Positions 48,814-58,391 of a stretch of DNA of 64,000 bases are shown piece after piece. Below the pieces are notes generated by a model. The model saw only the letters and a program-made list of their open reading frames with translations, searched no databases and was not told where the DNA came from. The number at the start of each line of letters is the position of its first letter. Position 1 is the stretch's first letter. The position numbers were made by a program, and so were the translations under genes. This DNA comes from Arcobacter sp. (GTDB lineage Bacteria > Acidobacteriota > Terriglobia > Bryobacterales > Bryobacteraceae), in NCBI GenBank assembly GCA_020723085.1, contig DYJN01000011.1, positions 1 to 64,000 of the forward strand, read 5' to 3'.

Positions 48814-49572
48814 CTAGAGCCGGAACAATTCGCGCAGCCGGCGCGTTTGCACGCGGCTGACCGGAATCACGGCGCCCTTCTTATCATCCATGCGGATCTG
48901 ATAGCTCGACTTGAACCAGGGGATCACTTCGCGAATCCGGTGGATGTTGACGAGGAAGCTGCGGTGGGGGCGCCAGAACACGGCCGGATCCAGGCTCGCC
49001 TGCAGCTCTTCCAGCGTCTTGAAATTGCTCTCGCCCTCAGCCTGCGCCGCCGCCACCGTGATCAGGCCGTCTTCGATGCGCGCGTAGATGACGTCGGAGG
49101 CGTCGACGATCAAGTGGCGGCCGCCGCTGCGGATCAGCAGCTTGCGCACCTGCGGGACCGTGGAGGCCGCAGCGGGCTCCGGCTCCAGCATGGTTCTCTT
49201 CACGCGGTCGATGGTCACCGCCAGCCGCTCGCGCGCGATGGGCTTCAGCAGGTAATCGAGCGCCTCCATGCGGAACGCCTCCAGCGCGTACTGCTCATAG
49301 GCGGTGCAGAGGACGAACGCCGGCACGGGCGCCTTGTCCTCGTGCAGTTTCTCGATCAGCCGCAGGCCGTCGAGCCCGGGCATCTGCACGTCGATAAAGA
49401 CCAGGTCGGGTTCCAGCTCTTCGATGCGCTTCAATGCCTCCAGGCCGTTGGATGCCGTGCCCACGACCTCGATTTCGGGGAAGCTTTTCAGCAGGTACAG
49501 CAGCTCATCCAGGGCCGGCGCTTCATCGTCGGCCACCACAGTGGGAATGGTTGCGCCAGTCCGCCCGCTCAT
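48814..49572 (-). CDS. LytTR-type response regulator
   Basis: VVADDEAPALDEL receiver, VFIDVQMPGLDGL, and C-terminal LytTR HRSFLVNIHRIREV. Confidence 0.92.
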   Translation of the reverse strand: MSGRTGATIPTVVADDEAPALDELLYLLKSFPEIEVVGTASNGLEALKRIEELEPDLVFIDVQMPGLDGLRLIEKLHEDKAPVPAFVLCTAYEQYALEAFRMEALDYLLKPIARERLAVTIDRVKRTMLEPEPAAASTVPQVRKLLIRSGGRHLIVDASDVIYARIEDGLITVAAAQAEGESNFKTLEELQASLDPAVFWRPHRSFLVNIHRIREVIPWFKSSYQIRMDDKKGAVIPVSRVQTRRLRELFRL

Positions 49573-49684
49573 CGGCCACAGTATAGCAGCCCGATGGCGC
49601 CGCTCCCTTCCGCACGCTGCTAAGATAAGATTTGGCCTTCATTCGGCTGCATCTCGTTTCGACCTACCCAAGGAGTGTCTGACT

Positions 49685-52108: not shown

Positions 52109-52954
52109 ATGCCGCCGACCGCCGAGCCATACCGGAACCAGGGGCAGGCCCCTTGGGTCATCGTGCAGGTACATCATCAAAGCGCCGCCCTGCATACCTC
52201 CATCGTTCGTGAACTCGTGATTCAGCCTGACGTCACTTCCGTGCCTGGCATGCCGGATTCCATCCGCGGCGTGATGAACTGGCGCGGCAAAATCATTCCC
52301 AACATCGACCTCCGGCTGCGCCTCGGAGTGCCCGCAGCGAGGGAGGAACTCAACGAACTCGCGGCCGCCATCACCGTGCGCGCCGCCGATCACATGGACT
52401 GGCTGAAGGAGTTGGAGGACTCGGTCACCGAGCACCGCCCGTTCACCCTGACCGCCGATCCGCACGCCTGCGCCTTCGGCCGCTGGTATGACACTTACCA
52501 GACCAGAAACCTGGTCGTCGCCGCGCTGCTGCGGAAGATGGACGCGCCTCACAAGGCCATCCACGCCGTCGCCGAGCGCGTGGAGGCTTTGATGGGGCGG
52601 GGCAAATTTGAAGAGGCGAAACAACTGGTCGAGTCCACGCGGGAGACCTCGCTTGCCCGCCTGCTCGATCTATTCACGAACTTCGAGCAGGCCATTCAAG
52701 AGAGCCACCGCCCGGTGGCCGTGATCGTGAACACCTGTGGGACCCTGGCGGCTTTGACCGTCGACCGCGTGCAGGCGGTCGAACCCATCGATCCCTCCAC
52801 CATCCAACCCCTGGACGATCGAGGCGTCGAAAGCTACTCCTCTGTGATCCGCTCCATCGCCCAGCGCGCCAAAGGAGCGGGGCTCGTCGGTCTGATCGAC
52901 GAATCCCAGATCCTCGAGTCCGCCGCCTGCCTGTCCGCCCCGCCGGCTTCCTGA
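52109..52954 (+). CDS. CheW-like protein with an internal CZB (chemoreceptor zinc-binding) domain
   Basis: CheW first half SIVRELVIQPDVTSVPGMPDSIRGVMNWRGKIIPNIDLRLRLGV; CZB DHMDWLKEL...DPHACAFGRWYDTY...PHKAIH; CheW second half VIVNTCGTLAALTVDRVQAVEPIDPSTIQP. Confidence 0.85.
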   Translation: MPPTAEPYRNQGQAPWVIVQVHHQSAALHTSIVRELVIQPDVTSVPGMPDSIRGVMNWRGKIIPNIDLRLRLGVPAAREELNELAAAITVRAADHMDWLKELEDSVTEHRPFTLTADPHACAFGRWYDTYQTRNLVVAALLRKMDAPHKAIHAVAERVEALMGRGKFEEAKQLVESTRETSLARLLDLFTNFEQAIQESHRPVAVIVNTCGTLAALTVDRVQAVEPIDPSTIQPLDDRGVESYSSVIRSIAQRAKGAGLVGLIDESQILESAACLSAPPAS

Positions 52955-53057
52955 CCAAGCCCGCTCGAACAGCGCTTCGCCAAGGTTGCAAGTACTAGGA
53001 CTCACAGCCGACTGGTTTTCTATCTCTCGCAGGAAGTCCGGGCGAAAATGGGGACAA

Positions 53058-54713
53058 ATGAATGCACGTGTCTTCATCACGCTCCTGGCGTGCGGTTTCC
53101 TGCTGCCTTGTGCGGCGCAGGAGCCGCTGGAGGCCGCACGCACCCTGCAGGAACGCCTCCGCGCCGTCTCGCGGCAGGAACCCGTCCCGCGCGCCGTCCG
53201 GCTGGGAATCCTCGCGCTGGATGGCGAGGCCGCCCGGCTCCGCGCGCTGGTCGGTGAGCTGTCCTCGCTTGAAGGCTTTGAAGTCCTGCCGGAGGAGATG
53301 TCAGAGGCAGCAGACGTCCGTATTTTTCTGCGCGCATCCGGCTCGGACGCTCCGCTCGTCATCTCCAGCAGATCGCTGAGCGACGCGGCATCGGTTTGGA
53401 AGACGCTCACGCCCGGAAGCCGGGCGGCGGCTTGCGACAGCTGCTTTGCGGACGGCAAGCCGGGTCTGGTTGTGGATGTAGGCCGCGCCGCCTCGACGCC
53501 CGGACAGATGATGGAGGCCGCGCTCGCCGTGCGCGGGGCGCTGGCGAAACTGTCCTCAGCCGGGCCGCGCACGGCGCAGAAGGGCGTCATGCTCTCGCCC
53601 GCGCCGGGCTCCACTCTGCCCGGCGGCGCGGTCACGTTTCAGTGGTCGGCCGGCGAGGGCGTGCAGCAGTTCTGGCTGATGATCGGGCTCTGGCCCGGCG
53701 GCAATACGCTCTATTCGGCCGATCAGGGATTGCTGACTTCGGCGCCGGTGAGCGGACTGCCCGCCGACGGGCGCACCATTTACGTGCGGCTTTGGTCTTA
53801 CATCGACAATCAGTGGGTCTACAACGATTACCAATACCGCGCCGCCGGCGCAGTGACGCCCGCCAAGGCGCAGATCACCGATCCCGCGCCCGGTTCGACG
53901 CTCGGCGGCTCCACCGCCACTTTCCGGTGGAACACGGGCACGGCGGTTTCGCGCTATTTCCTCTTCATCGGCCAGTGGCAGGGGGGCAACACGATCTTCA
54001 GCCAGGACATGGGCACATCGACGGAAGCCACCGTCACGAACCTGCCCGCCGACGGCTCGACGATCCATGTGCGGCTGTGGTCCTACATCGACGGCGCGTG
54101 GCAGTTCAATGACTGCACGTTCAAAGCCGCCGGCTCGGTGACGCCGGTGAAAGCCGAGCTGACCTCGCCCGCGCCCGGCTCGGTGCTTGCAGGGACGAGC
54201 GCCGCATTCCAATGGAGCGCGGGACAGGCGGTCACGCGTTACTTCCTCTTTGTCGGGCGCTGGCAGGGCGGAAATACGATCTTCAGCCAGGACATGGGAA
54301 CCTCTCTCAGCGCCACGGTGAACAACCTGCCCGCCGACGGCTTGCCCGTATATGTGCGCCTGTGGTCGTACCTCCAGGGCGCGTGGCAGTTCAACGACTA
54401 CGTCTTCACGGCCTCCGGCTCGCAGCCCGCGGGGCAGAAGGGCGTCCTCGTCTCGCCAGCTCCAGGCTCGACCCTGGCCGGCGCATCAGCCACGTTCACC
54501 TGGACTCCAGGCGTGCGCGTGGAGCGATTCTGGCTGTTTGCAGGCACGAGCCTCGGCAACAACAACATCTACGGCGGCGACCAGGGAACGAACACTTCCG
54601 CCACGGTCAGCAATTTGCCTGTCAACGGGCAGGTCATCTATGTTCGGCTCTGGTCCTATATCGACGGCGCCTGGCAGTACAGCGATGCCTCGTATCGCGC
54701 TGCCGGGCCTTGA
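53058..54713 (+). CDS. Secreted protein with four ~95-aa tandem repeats
   Basis: Signal peptide MNARVFITLLACGFLLPCAAQ; four SPAPGS(T/V)L...LW(S)YI(D)xxW units. Confidence 0.85.
   Translation: MNARVFITLLACGFLLPCAAQEPLEAARTLQERLRAVSRQEPVPRAVRLGILALDGEAARLRALVGELSSLEGFEVLPEEMSEAADVRIFLRASGSDAPLVISSRSLSDAASVWKTLTPGSRAAACDSCFADGKPGLVVDVGRAASTPGQMMEAALAVRGALAKLSSAGPRTAQKGVMLSPAPGSTLPGGAVTFQWSAGEGVQQFWLMIGLWPGGNTLYSADQGLLTSAPVSGLPADGRTIYVRLWSYIDNQWVYNDYQYRAAGAVTPAKAQITDPAPGSTLGGSTATFRWNTGTAVSRYFLFIGQWQGGNTIFSQDMGTSTEATVTNLPADGSTIHVRLWSYIDGAWQFNDCTFKAAGSVTPVKAELTSPAPGSVLAGTSAAFQWSAGQAVTRYFLFVGRWQGGNTIFSQDMGTSLSATVNNLPADGLPVYVRLWSYLQGAWQFNDYVFTASGSQPAGQKGVLVSPAPGSTLAGASATFTWTPGVRVERFWLFAGTSLGNNNIYGGDQGTNTSATVSNLPVNGQVIYVRLWSYIDGAWQYSDASYRAAGP
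53574..54713 (+). repeat. Four tandem ~275-300 bp coding repeats
   Basis: Units begin near 53574, 53872, 54147 and 54435; shared PAPGSTL, GGNTIF(S)xDxGT, NLPADG, VRLWSYIDGAWQ(F)ND. Confidence 0.85.
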
Positions 54714-54772: not shown

Positions 54773-55979
54773 ACAGCAGCCGGCCCGGGCGCGGCGCCGC
54801 CGCCTTCTCTCTCAGGCGGCGGATGCGCTTCTCGAGTTCCTGGCTCGGCTCGATGGCGGACGCCGCCATCGCCATCTCCAGCGCCAGCGCAGCGTTCTTC
54901 TCCCGCCGTTCGTAATGGATGGCCAGCTTCTCGAGCGCCTGCGCCTGATGAGGATTGCCGATGGTGGACAGTTCCGACCAGCGCGCCACGGCGGCGTCCG
55001 TGCGCCCGAGCTTGCGCTCCATGTCCGCCGCCTGCCACAACGCCTCCCACAGCATCTCCTCCGGCAGCGTGCGCCGGAGCGCTTCGTCGATCAGCGTGAG
55101 CGCCTCCTCCAGCCTTCCTTCCCTCTGGAAGTACCGCGCCAGCGCCACCATTTCGGCCGGGTGCGCGAGCCGGGAAGGATCGCGGAACGCCGCGGGCACG
55201 ATCGCCGTCAGGCAGGCGAGCGAGAGGATGTCGAACGCATTGTGAGAAAACACGGGCACGAGCGGGCGGAAATTCCCGGTGTGAAGGAACTCCAGGTAGA
55301 GCCTCGGAACGGCCGCCCCGCCGGGGTCGCCCTCGCGCTCATAGCCCAGAATGCGGGCCTCCAGTTCCACCAGCCGGCACGAATCCAGCGCCAGCCGCCA
55401 CAGCCGCCTGGCTGAATGCAGCAGGTCTATGTGCGCCAGATGCGCGAACGGGGCGCGCTGCCGCGCCAGCCGGTAGCGGGTTTCGAGCAGCGGCAGATCG
55501 AACGCCTTGCCGTTGTAAGTCACCACCACGCGGAACTTCTCAAGATGCCGCGCCAGGGCGTCAAGCATGGAGGGCTCTTCGCCGTGCTCGCGCATGAAAA
55601 ACTGGCGTACGGCGAAACCCTCCGGAGTGGCGTGGCCCGTGCCTACGAGGAACGCGAACGCTCCGCTGCCGCCGGACACGCCGCTCGTTTCCGTGTCGAG
55701 AAACACCCATTGCTCCGGCGGGCATCCGGCCGCCTCTTCGTCGAGTACAACGAGAAGATCGGCGGGCAGGTCGGCCAGCGCGCCCACATCGGAGCTGCCG
55801 TGGCGGTGGTGCGCCGGCCAGCGCCTCTCGATCTCCCAATGGGAGCCCAGGGAGGTTTCCACGGCGTGGCCCAGTTCCGGGGGCAGGGAAGCGGGGGCGT
55901 CCCGCGAGGCGCCGCGGGACTCCAAACGCGCGATTCTGCGCCGGAGCTGTTCCAGTTGTTTTTTCAGCAGCTCGTTCAT
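54771..55979 (-). CDS. Ribonuclease-H-like (YprB/DEDD) exonuclease with C-terminal helical repeats
   Basis: WVFLDTETSGVSGGSGAFAFLVGTG, VVVTYNGKAFDLPLLETRY, VFSHNAFDILSLA; TPR-like C-terminus. Confidence 0.85.
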   Translation of the reverse strand: MNELLKKQLEQLRRRIARLESRGASRDAPASLPPELGHAVETSLGSHWEIERRWPAHHRHGSSDVGALADLPADLLVVLDEEAAGCPPEQWVFLDTETSGVSGGSGAFAFLVGTGHATPEGFAVRQFFMREHGEEPSMLDALARHLEKFRVVVTYNGKAFDLPLLETRYRLARQRAPFAHLAHIDLLHSARRLWRLALDSCRLVELEARILGYEREGDPGGAAVPRLYLEFLHTGNFRPLVPVFSHNAFDILSLACLTAIVPAAFRDPSRLAHPAEMVALARYFQREGRLEEALTLIDEALRRTLPEEMLWEALWQAADMERKLGRTDAAVARWSELSTIGNPHQAQALEKLAIHYERREKNAALALEMAMAASAIEPSQELEKRIRRLREKAAAPRPGRLL

Positions 55980-58333
55980 TCAGCGTCGCGCCAGTTCGGT
56001 CCGTCGGCGGTTTCCACGAGCAGCGGCACTGTCAGCTTTTCCACGCCTTCCATGGTGCGCTTGACCATGGCGCGGACCTCGCCGAGCTCCTCCGGCGGGC
56101 ACTCGAGCACCAGCTCGTCATGCACCTGCAGCAACAGCCGGCTGCGCCAGCCGCGCTGCCGCAGCTCGGCGTCGACGAGAATCATCGCCTTGCGCATCAG
56201 GTCGGCTGCCGTGCCCTGCAGCGGCGTGTTCACCGCCGTGCGCTCGGCGAATGCCCTCGCGTTCGGGTTCTTCGAAGCGATGTCGGGAATGGGACGCCGC
56301 CGCCCCCAGAGCGTGAGCGTGCAGCCGCGCTCGCGCACCTCCTCGATGGTGCGGTCGATCCAGATCCGCACGCCGGGATAGCGTTCAAAGTACCTGGCAA
56401 TGTAAGCCCGCGCTTCCTCCACCGGAATGCCGAGCTGCTGCGACAGCCCGAACGGCGTCTGCCCGTACACGATGCCGAAATTCACGGCCTTGGCCGCACG
56501 GCGCATCTCGGGCGTCACCATCAGCGGCGCGACGCCGTGAATCTCGCTGGCGGTGCGCGTGTGGATGTCCTCGTTGTGGCGGAACGCCTCCAGCAGCGCG
56601 GAGTCGGAAGAAAAGTGGGCCAGCAGGCGCAGCTCGATCTGCGAATAATCGGCCGACAGCAGCATCCAGCCCGGTTCGGGGATGAAGCAGGAGCGGATCT
56701 CGCGGCCGAGTTCGGTGCGCACAGGGATGTTCTGGAGATTCGGATCGGCCGAAGAGAGCCTGCCCGTGGCCGCGCCCGCGGGATTGAACGTGGTGTGGAG
56801 CCGGCCGTCTTCCGGCGAGATCAGTTGCGGCAGGGCGTCCACGTAAGTGCCCTTGAGCTTGGCGAGCTGCCGGTAGTCGAGGATCTTCGCCACGATGGGG
56901 TGCGCCGCAGCGAGTGATTCCAGCACGTCGGCCGACGTGGAATAGGCCTTGGTTCTGCTCGTCTTGCCCTGCGGCTGGAGGCCCAGACGTTCAAACAGAA
57001 CCTCTCCCAATTGTTTCGGGCTGTTGATATTGAAAGGCATGCCGGCCAGGGCGTAGATCTCGTCTGTCAGCCGGCCCAGCGCGGCCTCCATCTCCGAAGA
57101 CAGTGCGGCCAGACGGCCGGTGTCGATGCGCACGCCCGTCTGTTCCATGCGCAGCAACACCGGCATCAGCGGCAGGTCGATCTCGTCGTAGAGCCGGCGG
57201 AGATCGCCCGTGACCATGGGGCGCAGCCGGCGCGCCAGAGCCCGCAGCGTCTCCTCGCGCGTAGCCGGAGCCCTCTCCAGGTAGCGCGCGATCAGCGATT
57301 CCAGCGCGCACGATGATGGATCCGCCAGGACCAGGAACGCATAGAGGAGCACGTCTTCCACCGGTTTGCCGGGATCCGGGCAGCCCGCGGCCTTCCAGTC
57401 GTAGAAGATGGCCGTGTCCGGCTCGGCTTCCCCGCCCTCCGCCTCAGCCGCTTCGGGACCGGCTGCCTGCAGATCCAGCTCTTTGAGGAAGCTCAGGAAC
57501 TCGTACTCGCGGTAGAACGCCGCCAGCGCCTCCAGATCGGGCGGCTGCGCGCGCAGCAGCTCCACATCGATCTCTACCGGCGCGCTCGTATCGATCGTCG
57601 CCAGCCGGCGCGACAGCTCGATCTGATCCCGATGGTTCAGCAGGCTCTCGCGGTAAGACTTGCGGCTCACCTCGCCCGCCTGGTCGAGCAGCTCATCCAG
57701 GCTGCCGAACTGGCTGAGCAGCTGCACGGCGCCCTTTTCGCCGATGCCCGGCGCGCCGGGGATGTTGTCCGAGGAGTCTCCGACCAGCGCCAGCAGGCCG
57801 ACGATGCGTTCCGGCGGCACGCCCTTGAACTCCTTGACCTTGGCGGGATCGTACAGCGTGTCGTTTTTCATGGGATCCAGCATGAAGATCCCATCGCCTA
57901 CCAGTTGCAGCAGGTCCTTGTCCGAGCTGATCATCCATACTTCGAGCCCAGCCGCCGCGGCTCGGCGCGCCAGCGTGCCGATCACGTCGTCGGCTTCAAA
58001 GCCCGGCGCCTTGAGCACGGGGACGCGCATGGCGCCGAGCATCCGCTCGATGGCAGGGATCTGCTCGATCAGCTCGGGCGGCGTTTCGGCGCGGTTCGCC
58101 TTGTACTCGGCGTATGCCTCGTCGCGGAAGGTCGGCCCTTCGCTTTCAAACACGGCCGCCAGGTACTCCGGCGAATACTGTTTTTGCAGACGCCGGATCA
58201 TGTTGTGGAAGATGTAAATGGCCTCGGTGGATGAGCCGCGTGAAGTGCGCATGGGCGCCGCACCGCTGCGCTGCCGGGCGTGATAGGCGCGGAAGATCAG
58301 ATTGAAGGCGTCGACGAGGAACACACGCGGCAT
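55976..58333 (-). CDS. polA: DNA polymerase I with shortened 3'-5' exonuclease region
   Basis: 5'-nuclease APGFEADDVIGTLARRA, GDSSDNIPGAPGIGEKGA; polymerase DYSQIELRLLAHFS, RRAAKAVNFGIVYGQTPFGLS, QVHDELVLE. Confidence 0.95.
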   Translation of the reverse strand: MPRVFLVDAFNLIFRAYHARQRSGAAPMRTSRGSSTEAIYIFHNMIRRLQKQYSPEYLAAVFESEGPTFRDEAYAEYKANRAETPPELIEQIPAIERMLGAMRVPVLKAPGFEADDVIGTLARRAAAAGLEVWMISSDKDLLQLVGDGIFMLDPMKNDTLYDPAKVKEFKGVPPERIVGLLALVGDSSDNIPGAPGIGEKGAVQLLSQFGSLDELLDQAGEVSRKSYRESLLNHRDQIELSRRLATIDTSAPVEIDVELLRAQPPDLEALAAFYREYEFLSFLKELDLQAAGPEAAEAEGGEAEPDTAIFYDWKAAGCPDPGKPVEDVLLYAFLVLADPSSCALESLIARYLERAPATREETLRALARRLRPMVTGDLRRLYDEIDLPLMPVLLRMEQTGVRIDTGRLAALSSEMEAALGRLTDEIYALAGMPFNINSPKQLGEVLFERLGLQPQGKTSRTKAYSTSADVLESLAAAHPIVAKILDYRQLAKLKGTYVDALPQLISPEDGRLHTTFNPAGAATGRLSSADPNLQNIPVRTELGREIRSCFIPEPGWMLLSADYSQIELRLLAHFSSDSALLEAFRHNEDIHTRTASEIHGVAPLMVTPEMRRAAKAVNFGIVYGQTPFGLSQQLGIPVEEARAYIARYFERYPGVRIWIDRTIEEVRERGCTLTLWGRRRPIPDIASKNPNARAFAERTAVNTPLQGTAADLMRKAMILVDAELRQRGWRSRLLLQVHDELVLECPPEELGEVRAMVKRTMEGVEKLTVPLLVETADGPNWRDAE

Positions 58334-58391
58334 GATCTGATTGTCCCGCATGCGCGCCGCCCCTGCGCCGCCACTCTGGCAGAATGGGCAC

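Follow-up and report, generated by a model that had tools for sequence, protein, structure and literature searches.

The window, by which we mean the whole 64,000-nt stretch of DNA analysed, carries at positions 52109-52954 a gene whose product contains a CZB domain nested between the two pieces of a CheW domain. Its features are:

52109-52954, plus strand: CheW-CZB gene, 281 aa, with ATG at 52109 and stop codon at 52952-52954 (open reading frame and Pfam)
52157-52333, plus strand: first CheW half, residues 17-75, with strands at 16-67 and a short helix at 68-71 (Pfam and AlphaFold2)
52334-52711, plus strand: inserted CZB module, residues 76-201 (Pfam, AlphaFold2 helices and Foldseek)
52712-52921, plus strand: second CheW half, residues 202-271 (CheW profile match and AlphaFold2 strands at 203-263)
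52391-52393, plus strand: predicted zinc ligand His95 (DHMDW), present in 11 of the 12 rows of alignment A2, Leu in genome G371
52469-52471, plus strand: predicted zinc ligand and redox Cys121 (CAFGRWY motif), invariant in the 12-row alignment A2
52550-52552, plus strand: predicted zinc ligand His148 (PHKAIH), invariant in the same 12 rows of A2
52562-52564, plus strand: predicted zinc ligand His152 (PHKAIH), likewise invariant in the 12 rows of A2

The start at 52109 is backed by orthologues that begin at roughly the same point. Pfam recognises CheW (PF01584) in two stretches of the 281-aa protein (78.7 bits against a cut-off of 23.5; whole-protein E 4e-22), the best of them covering residues 17-89, and CZB (PF13682) at residues 95-158 (48 bits against a cut-off of 29.4; E 1.6e-12). 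A profile scan of the whole genome matched the CheW halves separately, at window positions 52157-52378 and 52694-52924, and placed the CZB match at 52391-52582. Open reading frame, Pfam and genome-wide scans thus agree with the first-pass annotation on the coordinates, the domain order and the ligands. Two separate genes for the CheW halves, or a pseudogene with a chance CZB match, are ruled out by the open frame, the orthologues and the low dN/dS described below; the gene product is a real, conserved protein with CZB nested between CheW pieces.

Among 150 genomes sampled from the family Bryobacteraceae, nine have the full nested protein, all five of the genus among them; across the phylum it occurs in 5 of 396 genomes, in three families (f1, f6 and f63). 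Its orthologues share 64-77% identity within the genus and 33-43% in other genera and families, and because they keep the same nested order a chance arrangement is excluded. In a tree with plain CheW, 3xCheW and CheA domains, obtained by a short search over 143 columns and with many forks unresolved, the 13 CheW-CZB proteins form one group with an SH-aLRT value of 100. Judged from this tree, CheW-CZB is one clade spanning three acidobacterial families, a point absent from those parts of the published texts that were accessible. Comparison of the window gene with its genus orthologues gives dN of 0.06-0.27 and dS of 0.57-1.58 in each of the three segments; the ratio is well below 1, and all three segments are therefore under purifying selection. 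Plasmid and viral collections were scanned and contained no CheW-CZB relative.

From the window protein and 11 orthologues as input, AlphaFold2 built a model with a mean pLDDT of 83.7 and a pTM of 0.67. Strands at 16-67 and 203-263 make up a split CheW β-barrel, and the helices lying between them at residues 77-199 (77-107, 122-129, 135-142, 145-163, 167-179 and 181-199) form the CZB bundle, which rises out of one CheW loop; since the pTM is only 0.67, the orientation of CheW and CZB relative to each other is uncertain. Foldseek against the PDB ranks CheW structures at the top (9a72, 2qdl, 8c5v, 6s1k and 2ch4), with alignments of 251-269 columns that run across the insert (E 8e-10 to 3e-5), and matches the insert to the CZB domain of DgcZ (3t9o; E 6e-3, target TM 0.77-0.79). 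The first-pass annotation had left it to structure prediction whether the CZB bundle projects from a loop of CheW and whether the split halves have a CheW fold at all; the model displays the former, and AlphaFold2 and Foldseek together recover the latter. Because the bundle leaves a CheW loop and the halves keep the CheW fold, it is a sound reading of the model that the coupling protein itself could be the zinc or oxidant sensor. A sequence search of the PDB gave matches to the CheW part only, and hence no solved structure of the CheW and CZB combination.

When the 13 CheW-CZB proteins are aligned to our own CheW profile, the match of the first half ends at about position 66-93 (66-82 in most), and that of the second half begins at about 48-67. 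The end of the one and the start of the other put the break at about position 67, which on E. coli CheW is the loop between DLRIKF and the VVIVL strand. CZB is thus nested at one fixed CheW site across the clade, which is likewise not a point made in the published texts to the extent that these were available.

The combination of CheW with CZB is not new, contrary to what the first-pass annotation had implied; that annotation itself named wide prior description as grounds for refutation. CheW-CZB is a named subgroup that makes up 1.4% of 10,140 CZB proteins, with its highest abundance in Clostridia (PMC8262984), and PMC10653840 includes it among the known CheW architectures alongside another CheW fusion, CheWS, which was shown to mediate chemotaxis to SAM. 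The accessible text of neither paper describes a CZB insertion, and Figure 6A of PMC8262984 may show one. In the literature found, as far as its text extended, CheW-CZB is listed but not studied.

The 3His/1Cys set of CZB domains is complete in the window protein (H95, C121, H148 and H152), which on the strength of these residues is predicted to bind zinc. The cysteine is followed by Ala (CAFGRWY), and the 13 aligned CheW-CZB inserts mostly have C-A and in some cases C-K at this place. Ala or weak conservation after the Cys is given as a trait of the CheW-CZB subgroup in PMC8262984, which the Cys-Ala of the window protein fits. Its CZB domain is the sole one found in a scan of its genome. In the orthologue of G371 (loci L068 and L082) the first zinc His is replaced by Leu (DLLAW) and the remaining three ligands are retained.

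A profile scan of the 64,000 nt of the window found no CheA, CheR or MCP, and its one CheY/CheB-like match, at 48817-49638, belongs to the receiver domain of a LytTR regulator. The earlier statement that no chemotaxis partner lies nearby therefore holds for the window. It does not hold for the genome, in which contig C23 carries a CheW-MCP-CheA-CheR-CheY-CheB cluster, contig C134 another cluster, with a hybrid CheA and an MCP of its own, and contig C124 a lone MCP, amounting to three MCPs in total, plus FliG. With cheA located on C23 and C134, the partner seems missing only because the window is limited in size. On another contig of this genome (C81, L076:1-1270) the minus strand encodes CheY, a protein resembling CheX and a CheW-like one that runs off the end of the contig; these genes are possibly a further chemosensory unit, CheX being assigned by reading of the sequence.

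The G195 orthologue is found upstream of an MCP-3xCheW-CheB-CheR-CheY-CheA cluster, separated from it by one opposing gene that, by reading of its sequence, resembles polyphosphate kinase 2; the G093 orthologue adjoins motA and motB. The remaining loci examined have no chemotaxis neighbour. The G195 cluster (L083, 11306-18999) encodes a cytoplasmic-looking receptor with two signalling-like repeats, and its 3xCheW protein is without any insert. At the genus loci examined the CheW-CZB gene comes after an epimerase gene, and in most of them a repeat-protein gene follows. In the window the latter (52986-54713, plus strand) encodes a protein of 575 aa that has a signal-like N-terminus and four repeats, similar to one another and ~100 residues long, and that matches no Pfam family. 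Further along, at 55976-58351 on the minus strand, lies a gene for a DNA polymerase I that has the 5' nuclease and polymerase domains but in which Pfam detects no 3'-5' exonuclease domain.

We think it on balance probable that the window protein is an auxiliary CheW-CZB coupling protein, zinc- or oxidant-responsive, that acts in trans on chemosensory complexes. This role is favoured by the G195 orthologue near a che cluster, by the G093 orthologue next to motAB, by the full cluster and FliG of the genome itself and by the experimental precedent of CheWS, a CheW-fused sensor that mediates responses, and it is weakened by the lack of a chemotaxis neighbour at most loci and by the one orthologue that lacks the first His ligand. 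But might the protein work outside chemosensory arrays altogether, as a scaffold of CheW fold taken over by another pathway, its CZB serving zinc homeostasis? Its position beside metabolic genes (inositol-phosphate synthase and epimerase), conserved across the genus, and the lack of a che gene near the orthologue in most relatives would agree with such a use. However, the core CheW residues hardly vary, and two lineages have che or mot genes close to the locus. FliG is present in all nine family carriers, a weak point since 135 of the 150 family genomes have it too, and an association of FliG with CheW-CZB was for this reason discarded as uninformative. We regard a role outside arrays as very improbable.

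The manner in which the proposed coupling protein would sit in an array is a further question, as the two CheW halves have evolved unequally. Outside the genus, identity is 38-52% in the first CheW half, 37-44% in CZB and 17-28% in the second CheW half, whereas plain CheW proteins of similar first-half identity (0.47-0.51) retain 28-38% in the second. The equivalents of V36, E38, G57 and R62 of E. coli CheW, which we take to be important for binding, are kept in 12-13 of the 13 CheW-CZB proteins. By contrast, E27 is present in 27 of 27 plain CheW proteins and in none of the 13, F122 in 22 of 27 and again in none, and G133 in 27 of 27 and in three of 13. CheW-CZB thus lacks the residue set of array interface 2 (E27, R117 and F122 in E. 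coli), a comparison that is a hint only, as R117 is unconserved even in plain acidobacterial CheW and the E. coli interface mapping is therefore imperfect. E27 is an interface-2 cross-linking position in E. coli CheW, F122 and R117 have been mutated to break this interface, and such lesions disperse arrays and yet keep signalling (PMC5181776). Since the second half has diverged and E27 and F122 are absent from all 13 proteins, an ordinary seat in arrays is in doubt, and the pattern suggests that CheW-CZB retains the ability to dock but may be unable to network arrays as ordinary CheW does. The loss of array-networking residues in the second CheW half is a detail that does not appear in the published texts, as far as these could be consulted.

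The same pattern might be taken to mean that CheW-CZB breaks or caps arrays: it would bind receptor or CheA by its first half, be unable to network for loss of interface 2, compete with ordinary CheW and disperse arrays, the zinc state setting its affinity. The retained binding residues beside the lost E27, F122 and G133, the faster divergence of the second half than in plain CheW and the behaviour of the E. coli lesions are all in line with this. Then again, one of the interface-2 residues, R117, is already changed in plain acidobacterial CheW, and purifying selection on the divergent half within the genus speaks for some role of this half. We consider such dispersal unlikely.

The CheW-CZB loop is occupied in other proteins as well, namely in the middle CheW of eight 3xCheW proteins of family f1 and in one of G428, where it holds a helical insert of ~117 residues (shorter in one):

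L025, L035, L087 and L126-L130 (family f1) and L101/L131 (G428, a distant acidobacterium): insert in the middle CheW of 3xCheW proteins

These inserts are without the full His/Cys ligand set, and Pfam detects no CZB in them. A profile of the eight family inserts alone gives no convincing match to the CheW-CZB inserts (E 0.011, probability 3.7%); when G428 is included, hhalign aligns the two over 114 columns with an E value of 3.4e-7 and a probability of 93%, the score being 43.7 and the highest among 60 block shuffles 31.2. The insert is predicted as a confident helical bundle with a weak Foldseek match to the DgcZ CZB domain, the CheW halves around it being poorly modelled. The 3xCheW insert is probably a degenerate CZB, and no firmer grade is given because the link is based on the profile that includes G428. 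The tree separates CheW-CZB from the 3xCheW insert proteins, and an AU test does not reject a single clade (p 0.425). Tentatively, a single CZB insertion into the CheW loop may have made a zinc-controlled coupling protein, and the module, minus its ligands, may have become a structural part of the 3xCheW middle CheW, the loop being one that accepts sensor domains. If so, signal input via the baseplate would be a general route independent of chemoreceptors. G428 also has a receptor (L049) in which two tandem CZB motifs lie close to the N-terminus and precede both a likely membrane segment and the signalling domain.

For the zinc- or oxidant-responsive coupling protein, computation shows the nested architecture, the folds, the ligands, the conservation and the presence of partners in the genome, whereas zinc binding, stimulus, choice of partner and direction of effect are inferences. 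The CheW barrel would dock in trans on chemoreceptor/CheA complexes encoded elsewhere in the genome, with CZB leaving the loop that connects the DLR strand/helix to the strand after it and its first and last helices clamped to the barrel. In the zinc-bound, reduced state the CZB bundle would be ordered. If Cys121 were oxidised, HOCl being one example of an oxidant, or if zinc were lost, helices 2-3 would become looser and the first and last helices would move, which would distort or release the CheW part and thereby alter CheA activity or array coupling. Because both CZB ends are fixed to neighbouring barrel strands, the CheW part would feel a change in CZB directly. In DgcZ, helices 2-3 unfold when the zinc-Cys is oxidised and zinc is lost, and helix 1 and helix 5 change in their dynamics; in modelling, zinc loss alters the α1 and α5 ends that join CZB to its partner domain (PMC8262984). 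The DgcZ CZB is moreover a homodimer via α1 (PMC8262984), and α1 (77-107) is the longest inserted helix in the AlphaFold2 model of the window protein. By analogy, a CZB homodimer held by zinc could tie together two receptor/CheA units or two CheW rings, which we judge a distinctly unlikely function. If the role is the one that we propose, zinc or oxidant signals would reach the chemosensory array via the coupling protein and not via a receptor.

Of the systems closest to the window protein, the CheW-CZB subgroup of PMC8262984 shares with it the presence of both domains in one protein and Cys-Ala at motif positions 1-2; in the accessible main text, however, nesting is unstated and Acidobacteria are absent, whereas the window protein is nested and acidobacterial. 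The CZB domain of E. coli DgcZ (PDB 3T9O/4H54) has the same fold and 3His/1Cys site, and the window protein has a Trp three residues past the first His, as in diguanylate cyclases, but the DgcZ domain regulates GGDEF from the N-terminus whereas the window CZB is joined to CheW at both ends. TlpD-type cytoplasmic chemoreceptors likewise use CZB as a zinc/HOCl sensor in chemotaxis, a function predicted for the window protein; in these receptors CZB forms the C-terminal domain, whereas in the window protein it belongs to the coupling protein. In CheWS of Treponema and in CheV, too, the coupling protein becomes an input point by fusion of CheW to a sensor or receiver domain, yet theirs are terminal fusions with a CheR-like or receiver domain and not an inserted CZB. 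To these the window case adds a defined insertion site, an orthologue clade and natural ligand-less versions for comparison.
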